DNA of 64,000 bases, from contig NZ_CP017006.1 of NCBI RefSeq assembly GCF_001719125.1, positions 1,302,001-1,366,000 on the forward strand, in the 5' to 3' direction. Source of the DNA: Sulfolobus sp. A20 (GTDB lineage Archaea; Thermoproteota; Thermoprotei_A; Sulfolobales; Sulfolobaceae). Below are positions 3,406 to 9,599 of this stretch, piece after piece; position 1 is the stretch's first letter, and each line of letters opens with the position of its first letter. The translations under genes and the position numbers were made by a program. A model generated the notes under the pieces. That model saw nothing but the letters and a program-made list of their open reading frames with translations. It had not been told where the DNA came from and ran no database searches.

Positions 3406-4638
3406 ATGCACTTGAGAATAGCCTTTTTAGGAAGTGGTTTCTCAGCCCGTTTTCACTTACGAGGATTAGTAGGTGTGAGAAACGTTGAAGTTAGGGCTGT
3501 ATATTCCAGAAATCCTCAATCAGCTAAGGAATTCTCTTTGATTTCAGAGGAATTAGGAGTAGGTAAACCTAAAGTTTACGATGACATAAGTAAGATGCTG
3601 AGCGATAAGGATATAAATGCAGTATGGCTTACCGTGCCAAATAACGTTCACTTAGAATACACGAGAAGAATAGTAGAGGAGGTAAATCAAGGTAAAAGCA
3701 ATATTATAGGCATAGCTATAGAGAAACCATTAGCTAGAAACGTTAAGGAGGCTAAAGAGATGATAAGGCTAGTTGAGAAAGCGAGCTTACTTCACGGGTA
3801 CTTGGAAAACCAAGTATTTATGCCATCAGTCATTAAGGGGAAAGAGTTATTATGGCAAATGGGTGCTAAGAGCTCTGGTAGACCTTATTTAGCTAGAGCT
3901 GCAGAGGAGCATTCTGGTCCTCATAACAGCTGGTTTTGGAAGCCCACTATTTCCGGTGGAGGAGCTTTGTTAGATATGACTTGCCATAGTTTAGAGACCA
4001 CAAGATACGTTCTCACAGACCCTAATAAGGAGAAATCTTCATTGAAACCCGTAAGTGTTTATAGCGAGATAGCTACTTTAAAGTGGAACAAGAAGGAGTA
4101 TGTTAGTTACTTAAAACAAAAATATAACGTAGATTTCGACAAGGAACAAGCTGAAGATTACGCCCTCACGATAGTTTACTATAAGGATAATGAAGATAAT
4201 CTAGTTATATCTGAGACTAGAACCTCATGGAACTTCGTCGGTGCTGGTTTAAGATTGACTGTTGAAGTATTAGGTCCAGAGTACAGTTTAAATATTAATA
4301 CACTTCAACCCGAGCTATTTACTTTCTTTAGTAGAAATGTAAAGATACCTCAATCTGAAGCTTTTGTGGAGAAGCAAAACGCGGAACAAGGACTTATGCC
4401 CGTAATCCCAGATGAGGCAGTGACTTATGGTTATCAAGGGGAGGATAGACACATGGTGGAATCGTTTCTAGCTCGTAGAATGCCAACGGAAAACTGGTAT
4501 GATGGACTATTCATAGTTGAGTTAATGATGCATGCTTACTTGTCAGCTGAATTAGGAAAGAAGGTTAATTTCAGTCCTCAGCAAATAGAAGATTTTATTC
4601 CAAAGGTAGCTAAAGGTGAGTGGAGAGGGACGGAATAG
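3406..4638 (+). CDS. Gfo/Idh/MocA family oxidoreductase
   Basis: NAD(P)-dependent sugar or polyol dehydrogenase. The N-terminal Rossmann fold starts with IAFLGSGFSARFHLRG, and the family Lys motif IEKPLARN is at about residue 105. The C-terminal alpha/beta dimerisation domain contains GGGALLDMTCHSLE, with the usual active-site His. At 410 residues it is longer than the usual 330-360 because of extra C-terminal sequence. A TATA-like tctttatta lies about 28 bp before the ATG, so the mRNA is probably leaderless. It follows the GH-A glycosidase on the same strand with its own promoter. The substrate cannot be read from the sequence; context suggests a sugar released by the neighbouring mannosidase or mannanase-like enzymes. 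Confidence 0.8.
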   Translation: MHLRIAFLGSGFSARFHLRGLVGVRNVEVRAVYSRNPQSAKEFSLISEELGVGKPKVYDDISKMLSDKDINAVWLTVPNNVHLEYTRRIVEEVNQGKSNIIGIAIEKPLARNVKEAKEMIRLVEKASLLHGYLENQVFMPSVIKGKELLWQMGAKSSGRPYLARAAEEHSGPHNSWFWKPTISGGGALLDMTCHSLETTRYVLTDPNKEKSSLKPVSVYSEIATLKWNKKEYVSYLKQKYNVDFDKEQAEDYALTIVYYKDNEDNLVISETRTSWNFVGAGLRLTVEVLGPEYSLNINTLQPELFTFFSRNVKIPQSEAFVEKQNAEQGLMPVIPDEAVTYGYQGEDRHMVESFLARRMPTENWYDGLFIVELMMHAYLSAELGKKVNFSPQQIEDFIPKVAKGEWRGTE

Positions 4639-4730
4639 AGTTTATATACTATAATTATAGAATATGTACTTTTTACTTAGTATGATGAAAGTAAAATTTT
4701 TTAACTTCACTACTAACTTATAGTCAAGTG

Positions 4731-4804
4731 GGAAGAGGGCCAGAGCAATGGGGATTTATAGGGGTATAAAGGGGATCAACGTTGGGGTTGGCTCTGGCCC
4801 TTCC
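4731..4804 (+). other. long hairpin whose loop carries four GGGG tracts (possible small RNA / G-quadruplex)
   Basis: An inverted repeat pairs 4731-4746 with 4791-4804: GGAAG, a two-base AG bulge, then GGCCAGAGC against GCTCTGGCC and CTTCC. The 44-nt loop contains G tracts at 4750-4753, 4761-4764, 4771-4774 and 4784-4787, separated by 7, 6 and 9 bases, which fits a four-layer G-quadruplex. G+C content is far above the surrounding A+T-rich intergenic DNA, and no ORF explains it. A TATA-like attttttaac near 4695-4705 would place a transcript start around 4725, so a structured small RNA is possible. A transcription-related hairpin after the 4638 stop codon is an alternative. Only the base pattern is certain. 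Confidence 0.6.
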
Positions 4805-4892
4805 TGCTCGACATAATAAAATTTCATAAATTATAAAAATTGAGCTTCACTTCAAGACGTAAGGTAAATACTCTTTCATATAAATACTTAAT

Positions 4893-4906
4893 CTTAACTT
4901 GTTAAG
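4893..4906 (+). promoter_or_regulatory. palindrome CTTAAC-TT-GTTAAG (ARA-box-like)
   Basis: This is a perfect 6-2-6 inverted repeat of the same form as the sites at 47203 and 54890. It lies 97-110 bp before the start at 5003, farther than the 38-41 bp seen elsewhere, so its link to that promoter is weaker. Confidence 0.4.
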
Positions 4907-5002
4907 CATTGAAACGTAGCGTATTATGAAAACTTGTATATTATTTTTTAGTTAGTCCTCCTTTAATAAAGTTTAATAAATTGATAGCGTTAAGGTATAA
5001 CA

Positions 5003-7180
5003 ATGACTCAAGCAATAGGAAAAGCATTGAGGAGAATAATAGAAGATCCACCATTAATCACTGGAAGAGGTAGGTTCGTTTATGACATTGACTTTAGAGG
5101 AGCCCTTTATGCCGTATTTATAAGAAGTCAATATGCCCACGCGAAAATAAAAAGTGTTAGATGCCCTTCTAACTCCTTATGTTATACAGCTCAGAACTTA
5201 CCTAACATTGTAGGCTTTGCTAAAGACGAGGCAATCTATCAAGGACAACCATTGGCAGTAGTATTAGCTGAGGATGAGTATAAAGCTAGAGATTTAGCAG
5301 AACAGGTTGAAGTAGAATATGAGCCTTTATCAGCGGTTATAAGTGTAGAAGAAGCACTGAGAGATGTTAATAAGGCTAAAAGTGACTTAGAATCTAATAT
5401 CGTAATGCAAGATGAAATAGAAGTGGGAGATATTAGAGAGACGTTTCAGAAAGCTTATAAGGTTGTTGAAGGGGAATTGGTTAACCAAAGGGTAATCCCT
5501 TCAGCAATGGAACCTAGAGGAGCTGTGGCTTACTTTGATGGGAGAAGGTTAACTGTCTGGAGTAGTACACAGACTCCATTTGATTTGAAAAAGGGGCTAT
5601 CAGCTTTACTAGGTAACTATGGTGTTTATGATATAAGGGTTATTCAACCGTTTGTTGGAGGAGCTTTTGGAAGTAAAATAATTAATTATCCAGAGGAATT
5701 TATAGTAGCATATTTATCAGTTATTACTGGCAAGCCAATAAAATGGTTTAACACTAGGTCTGAGGATATGCAAACTACTAACCATGGAAGAGATATGAGA
5801 TTTAAATTTAAGGCAGCCTTCGATTCTGAGGGTAGGCTGTTAGGCATTGAAGGTACTTTAATTATGGACTTAGGTGCTCCAATACCAGAGATTAATGGGG
5901 ACTCCTTTGGCATGGCTACCACTGCAGCAAGGTTATTGATAGGAAGGTATAAGGTAAATGCGTTAAAGGTGAAGGTATTAGGAATAGCTACCAATAAAAC
6001 ATTTATTGGAGCATATAGGGGAGCTGGCAGACCTGAAGCTACATATTTTATAGAGAGAATTCTAAACCTTGGAGCGAGAGAGCTAGGAATTGATCAATTT
6101 GAAATTAGAGAAAGGAATATAATGGATGACGTGAATTTTTACAAATTACCAACTGGTATAGTTTATGACAGTGGAAAGTATAGGGAAATGTTAAGAATAG
6201 CTAAGCCTTATTATCATGAATTACTGAGGAGAAGAAATGAGCTAAGGAGTAAAGGTAAGCTAGCTGGTGTTGGTATTGCGATAGTGAGCGAGATAGCCTC
6301 TTTCGGTCCTTTCTCTACAGCGAAGGTTAAGGTACTGCCTAATGGTAGGATACAAGTAGTAACTGGGACTACGCCACATGGTCAAGGTGATGCTACAGCC
6401 TTTGCCCAGATAGCCTCTGAAATATTTGAGGTAGATCCTAGCCAGGTTGATGTTTTATGGGGAGATACGGACCTAATAGCTGAAGGTGATTTAACAGCAG
6501 GAAGTAGAAGTGTAACTGTTGGTGGTTCAGCAGTATTTGAGGCATCTAGGAGATTAAAGGAGAAACTATTGAGAATAGTATCGGAGAGGATGAGTGTTAA
6601 ACCAGAGGAAGTAATTTATGAAAATGGAAAATTCATTCATAAACAGAGTGGCAAATCTGTGACTTTAGCTGAAGCTTCAAGTATTTCAACTCATATGGGT
6701 GTCTTACCCGAGGAGGAGTATTCTTACGTTATGAACCTATACACTTCCCCATACGGTCTCCATATGGCATTAATAGAAGTTGATAGAGAAACTGGTTTTG
6801 TCAAGATATTGGATTACAAAGCATTTGATGACGTAGGAATAGTTGTGAATCCATTGTTGGCTGAAGGTCAAGTTCACGGAGGAGCTCTTCAAGGAATTTC
6901 ACAAGCTCTATATGAGGAAACGGTCTACACTCCAGAAGGAGCTTTAATAACTTCTAACTTTTCCGATTACGTAATACCCACGGCTGTAGAGAGCATAAAA
7001 GTTGAATGGAAGTCGTTAGCGTTAGCAAAATCCGATACTCCAATAGGTTCCAAGGGAATAGGTGAATTGCCTACGATAGCTTCAACACCTACTATTCTTC
7101 ACGCAGTAGAAGATGCAGTGAATAAGAACATTTACACGATGCCAATTAAGCCAGAGATTATTCTAAAGCTTTTGGATTAA
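5003..7180 (+). CDS. molybdopterin-dependent aldehyde oxidase/dehydrogenase large subunit (xanthine oxidase family)
   Basis: Catalytic molybdenum subunit that would oxidise an aldehyde (or a heterocycle) to the acid with water as oxygen donor. Family marks are GRGRFVYDIDF near the start, VGGAFGSK at about 219-226, GAYRGAGRPEA at about 336-346, TPHGQGDAT at about 456, and SKGIGELPT near 688 holding the expected catalytic Glu. The active-site loop is AYRGAGR, not the AYxCSFR of true CO dehydrogenase, so a 'carbon monoxide dehydrogenase' label would be wrong. Length is normal for the family. The FAD and 2Fe-2S subunits that complete such enzymes are not adjacent, so partners must come from elsewhere or are lacking. 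TATA-like tttaataa lies about 27 bp before the ATG (leaderless). Glyceraldehyde or another sugar-derived aldehyde is a reasonable substrate guess. Confidence 0.85.
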   Translation: MTQAIGKALRRIIEDPPLITGRGRFVYDIDFRGALYAVFIRSQYAHAKIKSVRCPSNSLCYTAQNLPNIVGFAKDEAIYQGQPLAVVLAEDEYKARDLAEQVEVEYEPLSAVISVEEALRDVNKAKSDLESNIVMQDEIEVGDIRETFQKAYKVVEGELVNQRVIPSAMEPRGAVAYFDGRRLTVWSSTQTPFDLKKGLSALLGNYGVYDIRVIQPFVGGAFGSKIINYPEEFIVAYLSVITGKPIKWFNTRSEDMQTTNHGRDMRFKFKAAFDSEGRLLGIEGTLIMDLGAPIPEINGDSFGMATTAARLLIGRYKVNALKVKVLGIATNKTFIGAYRGAGRPEATYFIERILNLGARELGIDQFEIRERNIMDDVNFYKLPTGIVYDSGKYREMLRIAKPYYHELLRRRNELRSKGKLAGVGIAIVSEIASFGPFSTAKVKVLPNGRIQVVTGTTPHGQGDATAFAQIASEIFEVDPSQVDVLWGDTDLIAEGDLTAGSRSVTVGGSAVFEASRRLKEKLLRIVSERMSVKPEEVIYENGKFIHKQSGKSVTLAEASSISTHMGVLPEEEYSYVMNLYTSPYGLHMALIEVDRETGFVKILDYKAFDDVGIVVNPLLAEGQVHGGALQGISQALYEETVYTPEGALITSNFSDYVIPTAVESIKVEWKSLALAKSDTPIGSKGIGELPTIASTPTILHAVEDAVNKNIYTMPIKPEIILKLLD

Positions 7181-7274
7181 AATTAAACTTTTTCCTAACT
7201 TAAAAGTGTTTTTACGAATTAATTAGGAGTTAAATTTAAAATTAATTCATATTAAGTAGTCATTATGACCCTCA

Positions 7275-8447
7275 TTGAGACCTCTGAGAACTTACGCTCT
7301 ACTTAACAATCTTGCCACGAGCCTCATAAACCCTTTCATATCATTCTTTAGTGCATCAAATGGAATTATAGGACCTTTCTTGGCTTTAGTTTCATCAGCT
7401 AATACTGCATTCCCTGGAATAATGCAATATATATTAGCTAACTTATCGATAAGGGCAAAGAGAATGATAATAATAGGGGATCTGTTAAGCGGAATTCTAT
7501 GGATAACCATCGGTGCCTTAGGAATTTACAATTCCATGTTTGTGCTAATATATGTTATAATTGCTGCACTATTGGGGGTGGCTAATTTTGGTTGGCTATT
7601 GATTCTAGACAAGGTAAGCGGAACTAAAAGAGGAACTACATTAGCTTATTATAACTTCTACGCTTATATTGGGGGATTAGTTGCTACGCTTATTACGGGC
7701 TTAATAGTAAAAGATGATCTATCTCTCATGGATTATTTCTTCATTATTGGGGGAATAATATACATAATAAATTGCTTTGTGATAAGTAGATTAGACGTAG
7801 ACGTCAAATTCATTAAGAGTAAAACCTCAGTTAAAAATCTTATTCTCAATAATTCTGAAATGCGAAAGTTTATATTAGCAAGCTTCATTTTTACATTAAT
7901 TTGGTCAATGGCATGGCCAATATTTCCCCTAGCTCAAGTATATAAATTCCATATGAACGAGTTTCAAATAGCTATCATTAATTTAACTGGCGGTCTGTCA
8001 ACAGTAGCCTTGCAAAGGTTAGTAGGAAGATTGGTAGACAAGCATAGAAGAAGAGTTATGTTCTTTGGAAGATTTGCCTTAGCTACTTTTCCTTTGGCTT
8101 ATGCACTTTCAACGTATACATATCAAATATACTTAGCTAATCTAGTATCTGGTTTTACAAATTCAGCATCGATCTCCTATACGGCATACTTATTTGATAA
8201 CTCTAACTACTACGAAAAAAGAGCTAATATAGCGTTATATAATATGTTTAATGGTTTTGCGGCGTTGATAGGATCTACGTTATCGAGTGTCTTTTTTGAA
8301 ATACTATCCAGCCATCTTAGCTTAGTCTTCAGTATCGATTTAATGTTATTAATGATTGGTATTTTGAGGATTTTAGCGTCATTATTATTTCTGACCGTTA
8401 GAGATAGGAGTAAGGCTGAAAACTCTAACATTATTAATAAATACTAA
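7275..8447 (+). CDS. MFS transporter (paralogue of the one at 17440)
   Basis: Multi-pass membrane protein of 390 residues with about 11-12 hydrophobic helices and the MFS layout of two halves. It shares strong blocks with the protein at 17440: YALLNNLA/YAILSNLA at the N-terminus, LGVANFGWLLI, and AWPIFPLAQVYKFHMN in the middle. The start is TTG at 7275. The nearby ATG at 7265 is in another frame and soon hits a stop, and conservation with the paralogue, which also starts with TTG, begins right after the initiator. It follows the molybdenum enzyme by 94 bp and precedes a sugar dehydrogenase, so uptake or efflux of a sugar or sugar acid is likely. The substrate is unknown. Confidence 0.8.
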   Translation: MRPLRTYALLNNLATSLINPFISFFSASNGIIGPFLALVSSANTAFPGIMQYILANLSIRAKRMIIIGDLLSGILWITIGALGIYNSMFVLIYVIIAALLGVANFGWLLILDKVSGTKRGTTLAYYNFYAYIGGLVATLITGLIVKDDLSLMDYFFIIGGIIYIINCFVISRLDVDVKFIKSKTSVKNLILNNSEMRKFILASFIFTLIWSMAWPIFPLAQVYKFHMNEFQIAIINLTGGLSTVALQRLVGRLVDKHRRRVMFFGRFALATFPLAYALSTYTYQIYLANLVSGFTNSASISYTAYLFDNSNYYEKRANIALYNMFNGFAALIGSTLSSVFFEILSSHLSLVFSIDLMLLMIGILRILASLLFLTVRDRSKAENSNIINKY

Positions 8448-8513
8448 ATATTTCTGAAGAATAAATGAAAAGATAAATCAAAGGCTTATAAACGTATGTC
8501 ATAATTATATAAC

Positions 8514-9599
8514 ATGAAATTAGGCATTATAGGATTAGGTGGATGGGTTACCTATGGGCATCTACCAGCGTTATCAGAGCTAGGAGTTAAAGTGGAATCA
8601 TGCGTAGATATAGATGAAAGGAGAGTAAAGGATTTTTCTTCAAAGACTGGCTGTAAAGGATATACTGATTACATAGATATGTTAAAAAACGAAAATCCTG
8701 ACCTAGTCTTAATAGCAGTTCCTCACTCTCTTCATGCTAAAATTGCTTTAGATGCTCTTAGCAACGGCTCTAACGTGTATGTTGAAAAACCGATGGCTAC
8801 ATCTTTTGAGGAAGCATTAAAGTTAGTTGAAGCGTCTAAGAAAAAGAACAAGATTCTTGTAGTAGGTCATGAATTTAGATTTGAACAAAACTCCCTTACT
8901 GCTAAAAAATTGATCAAAAACGGTGAACTAGGTAATATATATCATGTAAGAAGCTTATATATAAGGCAAAAAGGTATACCCACTTCGTCTACCTTTATAA
9001 GGAAGGATTTAGCTAAAGGGGGAGTAATTTTTGATTTAGCGACTCACTTAGTAGATCTTATAATGTTCTTCTTAGATTTCCCAACTCCTAAAAGCGTAGT
9101 ATCTAGAACTCATTACGTCTTCTCTCAAGATAAGACTAAGTTTTCCTCATATCCTTCACCTACCTTACCTAAAGATAAGGTAGAGGTGGAGGACTTCGCT
9201 TCAGCGTTTCTAGATCTTGACGGTATTTCAGTGTATATAGAAACTAGCTGGGCTTCTTACATTAAAGAGAGCAAGAGGGAAATAGTAATATTAGGTAATA
9301 AGGGTGGAATTCATATAGATAATTCCTTATACTTTATGAGAAATATAGCTGATGAATTCTTCATCTCTAATCCATTAACCACTCAGCAAAGAAGCGTATA
9401 TAAAGAGGTCTGGAGTAAAATTATTAACGCTATTGAGAAAGCCGAAATACCGTATCCATTTTGTACAGTGGAACAAGGGGCAATTAATGTAGCAATATTA
9501 GAGAGTATGTATAAATCGGCTATGGAAGGTAAAGAAGTTAAAATAGATATTCCAGCTTGGTTATTGCAGTCGGCTAAACAGTCTCTAGAAGTAAATTAA
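8514..9599 (+). CDS. Gfo/Idh/MocA family oxidoreductase
   Basis: NAD(P)-dependent dehydrogenase of 361 residues. The Rossmann motif GIIGLGGWVTYGHLPAL is at residues 3-19, the conserved YVEKPMAT near 92-99, and FDLATHLVDLI near 178-188 carries the active-site His. It resembles the 355-residue protein at 13555 (both have a R-x-x-GIP segment after the catalytic Lys region), so the two are probably a diverged pair. TATA-like cttataaac lies about 25 bp before the ATG, indicating a leaderless start. Its 3' end overlaps the convergent ABC gene by 26 bp. Substrate unknown; a pyranose, inositol or glycoside is typical for the family. Confidence 0.82.
   Translation: MKLGIIGLGGWVTYGHLPALSELGVKVESCVDIDERRVKDFSSKTGCKGYTDYIDMLKNENPDLVLIAVPHSLHAKIALDALSNGSNVYVEKPMATSFEEALKLVEASKKKNKILVVGHEFRFEQNSLTAKKLIKNGELGNIYHVRSLYIRQKGIPTSSTFIRKDLAKGGVIFDLATHLVDLIMFFLDFPTPKSVVSRTHYVFSQDKTKFSSYPSPTLPKDKVEVEDFASAFLDLDGISVYIETSWASYIKESKREIVILGNKGGIHIDNSLYFMRNIADEFFISNPLTTQQRSVYKEVWSKIINAIEKAEIPYPFCTVEQGAINVAILESMYKSAMEGKEVKIDIPAWLLQSAKQSLEVN

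Follow-up and report, generated by a model that had tools for sequence, protein, structure and literature searches.

The window, the whole 64,000-base stretch of Sulfolobus sp. A20 DNA analyzed here, contains a hairpin with four G tracts between a Gfo/Idh/MocA-type oxidoreductase gene and a gene for the large subunit of a molybdopterin-binding dehydrogenase (Table 1). The nearest NCBIfam model to the product of the latter (hereafter the molybdenum enzyme) is glyceraldehyde dehydrogenase alpha, with a score below the model cut-off. Seven genomes of the genus were compared, namely that of the window (G000) and six others, which represent four deep lineages (G000, G004, G005 and the clade G001/G002/G003/G006). 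The order of genes is the same in all seven, with a first gene that we take to be mannosidase-like followed by a glycosidase, the MocA-type gene, the hairpin, the molybdenum enzyme, an MFS transporter, a second MocA gene and an ABC transporter.

Table 1. Features of the hairpin locus, with positions in the window.
Feature	Position	Strand	Basis or remark
Upstream neighbor, Gfo/Idh/MocA oxidoreductase gene	3406..4638	+	Pfam PF01408; ends 6 nt before block A
Conserved upstream block A (51 bp), predicted promoter/operator region	4645..4695	+	Mean pairwise identity 0.90
Perfect 12-bp palindrome CTATAATTATAG, candidate dimeric regulator site	4649..4660	.	Sequence reading
Inverted repeat TTTACTT-N10-AAGTAAA	4672..4695	.	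3' half over expected BRE position
Putative TATA-like box TTTTTTAA	4697..4704	+	Sequence drifts, TATA-like in 7/7
Predicted small RNA, ~75-80 nt	4727..4805	+	5' end predicted near A4727 from TATA spacing
Basal helix, 5' strand (GGGA)	4730..4733	+	Partner 4802-4805; fold predicted in 7/7
One-sided bulge, 2 nt (AG)	4734..4735	+	5' side in 7/7; 2-3 nt in relatives
Upper stem, 5' strand AGGGCCAGAGC	4736..4746	+	Compensatory changes at four pairs of helix
Four GGGG tracts, four-layer quadruplex motif, A/T-rich loops	4750..4787	+	Tract G kept in 7/7
Upper stem, 3' strand GCTCTGGCCCT	4791..4801	+	Compensatory changes at four pairs of helix
Basal helix, 3' strand (TCCT)	4802..4805	+	Predicted fold
Downstream neighbor, molybdopterin-binding dehydrogenase large subunit gene	5003..7180	+	Profile match

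An earlier note, made from the sequence alone, had described the hairpin as a near-perfect 14-bp stem within a unit at 4731-4804. The element is real, and its dimensions need correcting: the paired unit spans 4730-4805 and comprises 15 bp, with 11 perfect pairs between AGGGCCAGAGC and GCTCTGGCCCT and four pairs, one of them G-U, in a basal helix set off by the one-sided bulge. Beyond these 15 bp the predicted stem continues outward with poorer pairing. The G tracts (4750-4753, 4761-4764, 4771-4774 and 4784-4787) and the intervening loops of 7, 6 and 9 nt lie inside the stem as the note had described. The hairpin folds better than 200 of 200 shuffled sequences on both strands (z of -4.6 for the plus and -7.2 for the minus strand). 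Such a motif was also said to be unusual in this DNA, which agrees with our counts, as the pattern GGGG-N-GGGG-N-GGGG occurs three times in the window against 0.07 expected; nine three-tract windows were listed for the whole genome, two of which overlap at the hairpin locus to give the four-tract run. The hairpin is present once in its own genome of 2,688,317 bases.

Searches with the intergenic DNA recovered the locus in 6/6 other genomes of the genus; G002 and G003 were matched solely through a 62-bp block upstream of the hairpin, which was itself read afterwards and did not select the match. The covariance-model search of Sulfolobales that the earlier note had proposed returned one strong match per genome in all seven genomes of the genus (70.3-94 bits, all syntenic). 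Under the strict filters used for the 214 genomes of the order, there were no strong matches in the other 207 (next best 23.8 bits, at L042), in a search that missed the lookalike described below and may have missed other weak relatives too. Eight weak-match loci, of the many listed, were aligned, and the stem and four tracts were never found together. Descent from a virus or plasmid was considered and rejected: no match to the element was found in phages or plasmids, nor any match to a gapped stem-and-tract pattern in the viral contigs. A mobile repeat or MITE would be expected in several copies per genome at non-syntenic places; the hairpin has one copy per genome at the same locus in all seven, and this suggestion of the earlier note was rejected. 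Separately, seven weak model matches of 62 nt each and with only two scores (e.g., 450221-450282 and 1646643-1646704) were seen in G003:C1, which suggest a repeat element of G003.

The stem and the G tracts, on whose conservation the earlier note had made its proposal depend, are both kept in all seven genomes. Neutral sites are nearly saturated; between the four deep lineages, the flanking genes share 39-40% identity at fourfold degenerate sites, against 32-34% expected by composition. All 16 tract guanines are retained in 7/7 genomes. With 39% per site, a single deep comparison would by a rough estimate keep all 16 by chance about 3 times in 10 million. The quadruplex loops vary between 4 and 11 nt, are 95% A+T and share 38-59% identity between deep lineages. 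Within the stem alignment, 96% of cells are paired and five pairs carry double changes, compared with 1.3 in shuffles; none of 500 shuffles reached the observed pairing or double-change count, in a count that ignores kinship, with four of the seven sequences forming one close clade. One of the five double-change pairs belongs to the basal helix, whose alignment is out of register between sequences, and reliance is therefore placed on the four in the upper helix. When the partner strand was slid by 1-3 columns, only 0-1 such pairs were left. The compensatory changes include C-G to U-A in G002 and, at other pairs, G-C to A-U in both G003 and G004, and a G-C/A-U exchange separates G000 and G005 from the remaining genomes. 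The A-U pair adjoining the quadruplex is absent from G000 and G005. Further pair types showed no excess over shuffles (278 of 500 reached the observed value). Taken together, the hairpin structure is almost certainly under selection.

Conservation extends upstream of the hairpin and ends at its 3' side. Among deep lineages, identity is 0.90 in block A, 0.60 in the TATA-plus-spacer and 0.30 in the 40 nt 3' of the hairpin, and because of this last drop the conserved island is read as promoter plus hairpin. A 22-bp core of block A occurs, at 0-1 mismatch, solely at the hairpin locus in six of the seven genomes, the G003 locus having three mismatches. In G003, both half-sites of the palindrome are altered together (CTATAATTATAG to CTGTAATTACAG), leaving it perfect, and GAAAGTAAA, the 3' half of the second inverted repeat, is identical in 7/7. 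The distance from this end of block A to the GGG at the stem base is 33 nt in six genomes and 34 nt in the window, and an A stands two nucleotides before the GGG in six of seven. Block A and the TATA-like box, held at this spacing throughout the genus, would thus supply what is expected of a small-RNA gene, a promoter of its own. The TATA-like element that the earlier note had placed about 26 bp upstream was found at that distance from the stem base. Transcription usually starts 26 nt or so from the center of the TATA box, which puts the predicted start 2-3 nt upstream of the stem. Neither a terminator nor a 3' end was recognizable as conserved. A small peptide was considered as the product and rejected, since no conserved frame of the ATG GGA TAG type is found where the RNA begins.

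Folding with the quadruplex option of ViennaRNA at 37 °C gave the stem plus a four-layer quadruplex as the minimum-energy structure in all seven sequences, with a gain of ~17-25 kcal/mol over folding without that option. All seven carry the motif required of an RNA G-quadruplex, four G tracts able to stack. Conversely, at 75 and 80 °C the stem was predicted and the quadruplex in 0/7, which counts against a quadruplex, with the qualification that the temperature extrapolation of ViennaRNA for quadruplexes is rough. Weighing both, we consider formation of the quadruplex in the RNA probable.

The same inverted repeat and G tracts also exist in DNA, and both strands fold well, so the locus could instead work at the DNA level without any RNA, as an extruded cruciform or hairpin whose G strand folds into a quadruplex, binding an architectural protein or influencing transcription or replication. 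We regard this as unlikely for three reasons. First, the non-Watson-Crick cells of the stem comprise seven G-U and one each of AG, AA, GA and UU, with no A-C; of the seven G-U cells, a single column accounts for four and the basal helix, which aligns poorly, for two, and the number of independent events is accordingly small. Columns 8/72 hold G-C, G-U and A-U in different genomes, a series that is the usual path of an RNA pair. Since G-U is tolerated in an RNA read from the plus strand, whereas one read from the minus strand would see each G-U as A-C, the presence of G-U without A-C favors an RNA from the plus strand. Second, the fixed spacing from the TATA-like box places the stem base where the 5' end of an RNA would be expected. 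Third, the promoter-like block is more conserved than the stem, which would make little sense without an RNA.

If the hairpin is transcribed, it could belong to either neighboring gene, and insertions in two genomes bear on this. The hairpin lies upstream of the molybdenum-enzyme gene on the same strand in 7/7 genomes, the arrangement behind the earlier proposal of a regulatory element for that gene, and a leader, riboswitch or attenuator acting in cis would fit it. We disfavor this and consider it improbable. In the window, a TATA-like box of the gene's own lies at 4972-4979, ~27 nt before the ATG, and by reading such a box stands ~26-30 nt before the ATG in all seven genomes, from which the gene is probably leaderless. 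It is also preceded by a separate palindrome, CTTAACTTGTTAAG (4893-4906), read in similar form across the genus, which is a likely operator of the molybdenum-enzyme gene, distinct from block A. In G004, ~1.26 kb with a 190-aa ORF intervenes between the hairpin and the gene; the hairpin is intact, and the counterpart of CTTAACTTGTTAAG lies beyond the insertion, i.e., away from the hairpin. More improbable still is that the hairpin forms the 3' end of the MocA-type mRNA or governs its stability. The hairpin directly follows that gene in six of seven genomes, as such an element would, whereas in G001 the two are separated by an insertion of ~2.6 kb that enters the gene within its final codons, upstream of block A (L065 ~6390-9010); on reading, the insertion has inverted ends and frames resembling those of transposons. 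Moreover, the conserved block between gene and hairpin is promoter-like rather than terminator-like. A MocA-type gene is also present in G007, in another neighborhood and without the hairpin. As block A and the hairpin are unbroken in both G001 and G004, and the molybdenum-enzyme gene has a TATA-like box and a palindrome of its own, the hairpin belongs to neither neighbor.

Membership of a known small-RNA family (C/D, H/ACA, CRISPR- or TnpB-associated), or descent from a mobile repeat, is highly improbable for this single-copy, syntenic element, since the box-C-like ATGATGA within block A of six of seven genomes is missing from G004, no box D was seen, and nothing matched in Rfam at gathering scores. 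The latter held for all 64,000 bases. At relaxed E-values, five sub-threshold matches fell within 4600-4900, the best at 16.4 bits against a cut-off of 80, and the sR2 family matched the region at 10.9 bits against 42. Two guide-RNA types were rejected individually. A C/D box sRNA is defined by boxes C (RUGAUGA) and D (CUGA), a C'/D' pair and a kink-turn, and by reading the ATGATGA lies only upstream of the predicted RNA. An H/ACA sRNA is defined by a stem with a pseudouridylation pocket and a 3' ACA box, and by reading no ACA follows the stem at a conserved spacing, nor does the predicted fold contain an internal pocket.

We therefore lean towards reading the locus as a small-RNA gene with a stem-mounted quadruplex, which would act by its shape through a bound protein or ligand. 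The first part of the earlier proposal, that the unit is a novel structured small RNA transcribed from its own promoter, gains support from the conservation, the covariation, the fixed TATA-to-stem spacing and the survival of the unit between insertions. On these sequence grounds the locus very probably makes its own transcript. The features retained are the bulged stem and a quadruplex with a UGGGG start, with no conserved loop stretch fit for target pairing. Because the loops vary freely and the stem and tracts do not, a shape-based function is favored over base-pairing with an mRNA; whether the RNA acts through a bound protein or ligand is, on the same evidence, an even call. In the mechanism we propose, a regulator would bind the palindromic operator at 4649-4660, and perhaps also the inverted repeat at 4672-4695, and the RNA would be produced when the regulator at the palindrome permits. 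TBP and TFB would assemble on the TATA-like box (4697-4704) to start transcription ~2-3 nt before the stem. The RNA would then fold into the 4-bp basal helix, a short purine-rich one-sided bulge and a helix of 11-12 bp, with the four-layer G-quadruplex stacked on the helix end, and would act in trans on a protein, small ligand or ion, for which it would be a platform for binding, a decoy or a sensor.

Beyond the genus, one lookalike was found, in another genus of the family (G027; L120 1568-1636 on the minus strand, G027:C1 ~912375-912443). Its stem pairs GGGGCTAGA with TCTAGCCCC, plus ATA/TAT, and it carries four or five GGGG tracts. A TATA-like sequence, TTTTTTAAAC, precedes it, with the first paired nucleotide ~33 nt after the box, a distance about as in the genus. 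The stem core reads GGGCTAG/CTAGCCC compared with GGGCCAG/CTGGCCC, one compensatory change and the same as in G002. It differs in its neighbors, which are ABC-2-type transporter genes with the hairpin upstream of them, and in having no block A; this type of hairpin was also not found in the three other genomes of G027's genus. Against a model built without it, G027 scored 20.7 bits (E of about 0.03 for the whole genome by our own scaling), and without quadruplex terms its fold is ordinary (z of -0.8). Judged from its sequence, it is a possible relative of the genus hairpin. A search of the 31 genomes of the family with a second model that incorporated G027 (R2) yielded no new find, the best match after the genus and G027 having an E of 0.026. 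In a scan for three GGGG tracts, covering 30 loci (one each in 30/31 genomes) and 12 places, only G027 has, as the genus hairpin does, four tracts in a noncoding stem. As these searches did not find the hairpin outside the genus save for this lookalike, its function must be dispensable or replaceable there. A wider and tentative view is that of a new archaeal RNA class, with a quadruplex-on-stem core that at ~75-80 °C would offer proteins a platform or sense an ion or a flat ligand (e.g., a cofactor), with a dedicated regulator and with a shortened form, that of G027, spread to a second genus.

The closest structural parallels are the in vitro-selected dye-binding aptamers Spinach, Mango and Corn, in which a quadruplex is stacked on a duplex stem. 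The hairpin is alike in having a stem-stacked quadruplex within a short RNA; the sequences are unrelated, and it differs in its four layers, long A/U loops and natural conservation. Evidence for cellular use of RNA quadruplexes rests largely on motif counts, whereas this locus is a compact natural case in which selection has retained four G tracts together with their supporting stem, and the sequence between the tracts has changed throughout. S. islandicus and S. solfataricus can be transformed; with one small gene, a cellular need for a quadruplex thus becomes testable in a tractable hyperthermophile. The element would also provide a stem-quadruplex scaffold of natural origin, expected to be stable at high temperature. 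The trans-encoded intergenic small RNAs of Saccharolobus/Sulfolobus are likewise short intergenic genes with their own promoters, and literature searches found no quadruplex-bearing member among them. The main S. solfataricus transcriptome map is reportedly that of Wurtzel et al. 2010, and the RNA may already have been detected in that species as an unnamed ncRNA. Cappable-seq has also been carried out on S. solfataricus (PMC8448881). Our searches, largely of papers outside subscription, found no report of such a stem-quadruplex RNA, nor were the S. solfataricus tags of the gene pair named in an RNA context. The RNA is best called a new family with an unusual architecture. Saccharolobus/Sulfolobus ncRNAs of this intergenic kind, with no function assigned, have been co-purified with SmAP proteins (PMC4500138). 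A survey found quadruplex motifs over-represented in annotated archaeal ncRNA (PMC7565180); it counts motifs, and its accessible part names no stem-quadruplex gene and no conservation of one.

The scans for G-rich DNA also met other loci. Among the three-tract GGGG matches, those at L125, L126 and L135 (G008 and G025) have GC-rich ends, CCTCGCC...GGGGATGGATAGCCC and variants, which we take to resemble transposon-associated guide-RNA ends. A G-rich core promoter beginning GGGGTTTAAGTGGGGGG was seen at G000:C1:567192-567222 (L131), directly preceding a gene of ~127 aa that presumably encodes a SpeD-type decarboxylase. This promoter is present in all seven genomes of the genus (G001:1141828, G002:1718092, G003:518804, G004:2479286, G005:342398 and G006:2563290), and GGGG-TATATAA-GGGGGG-like strings occur in other genera as well.
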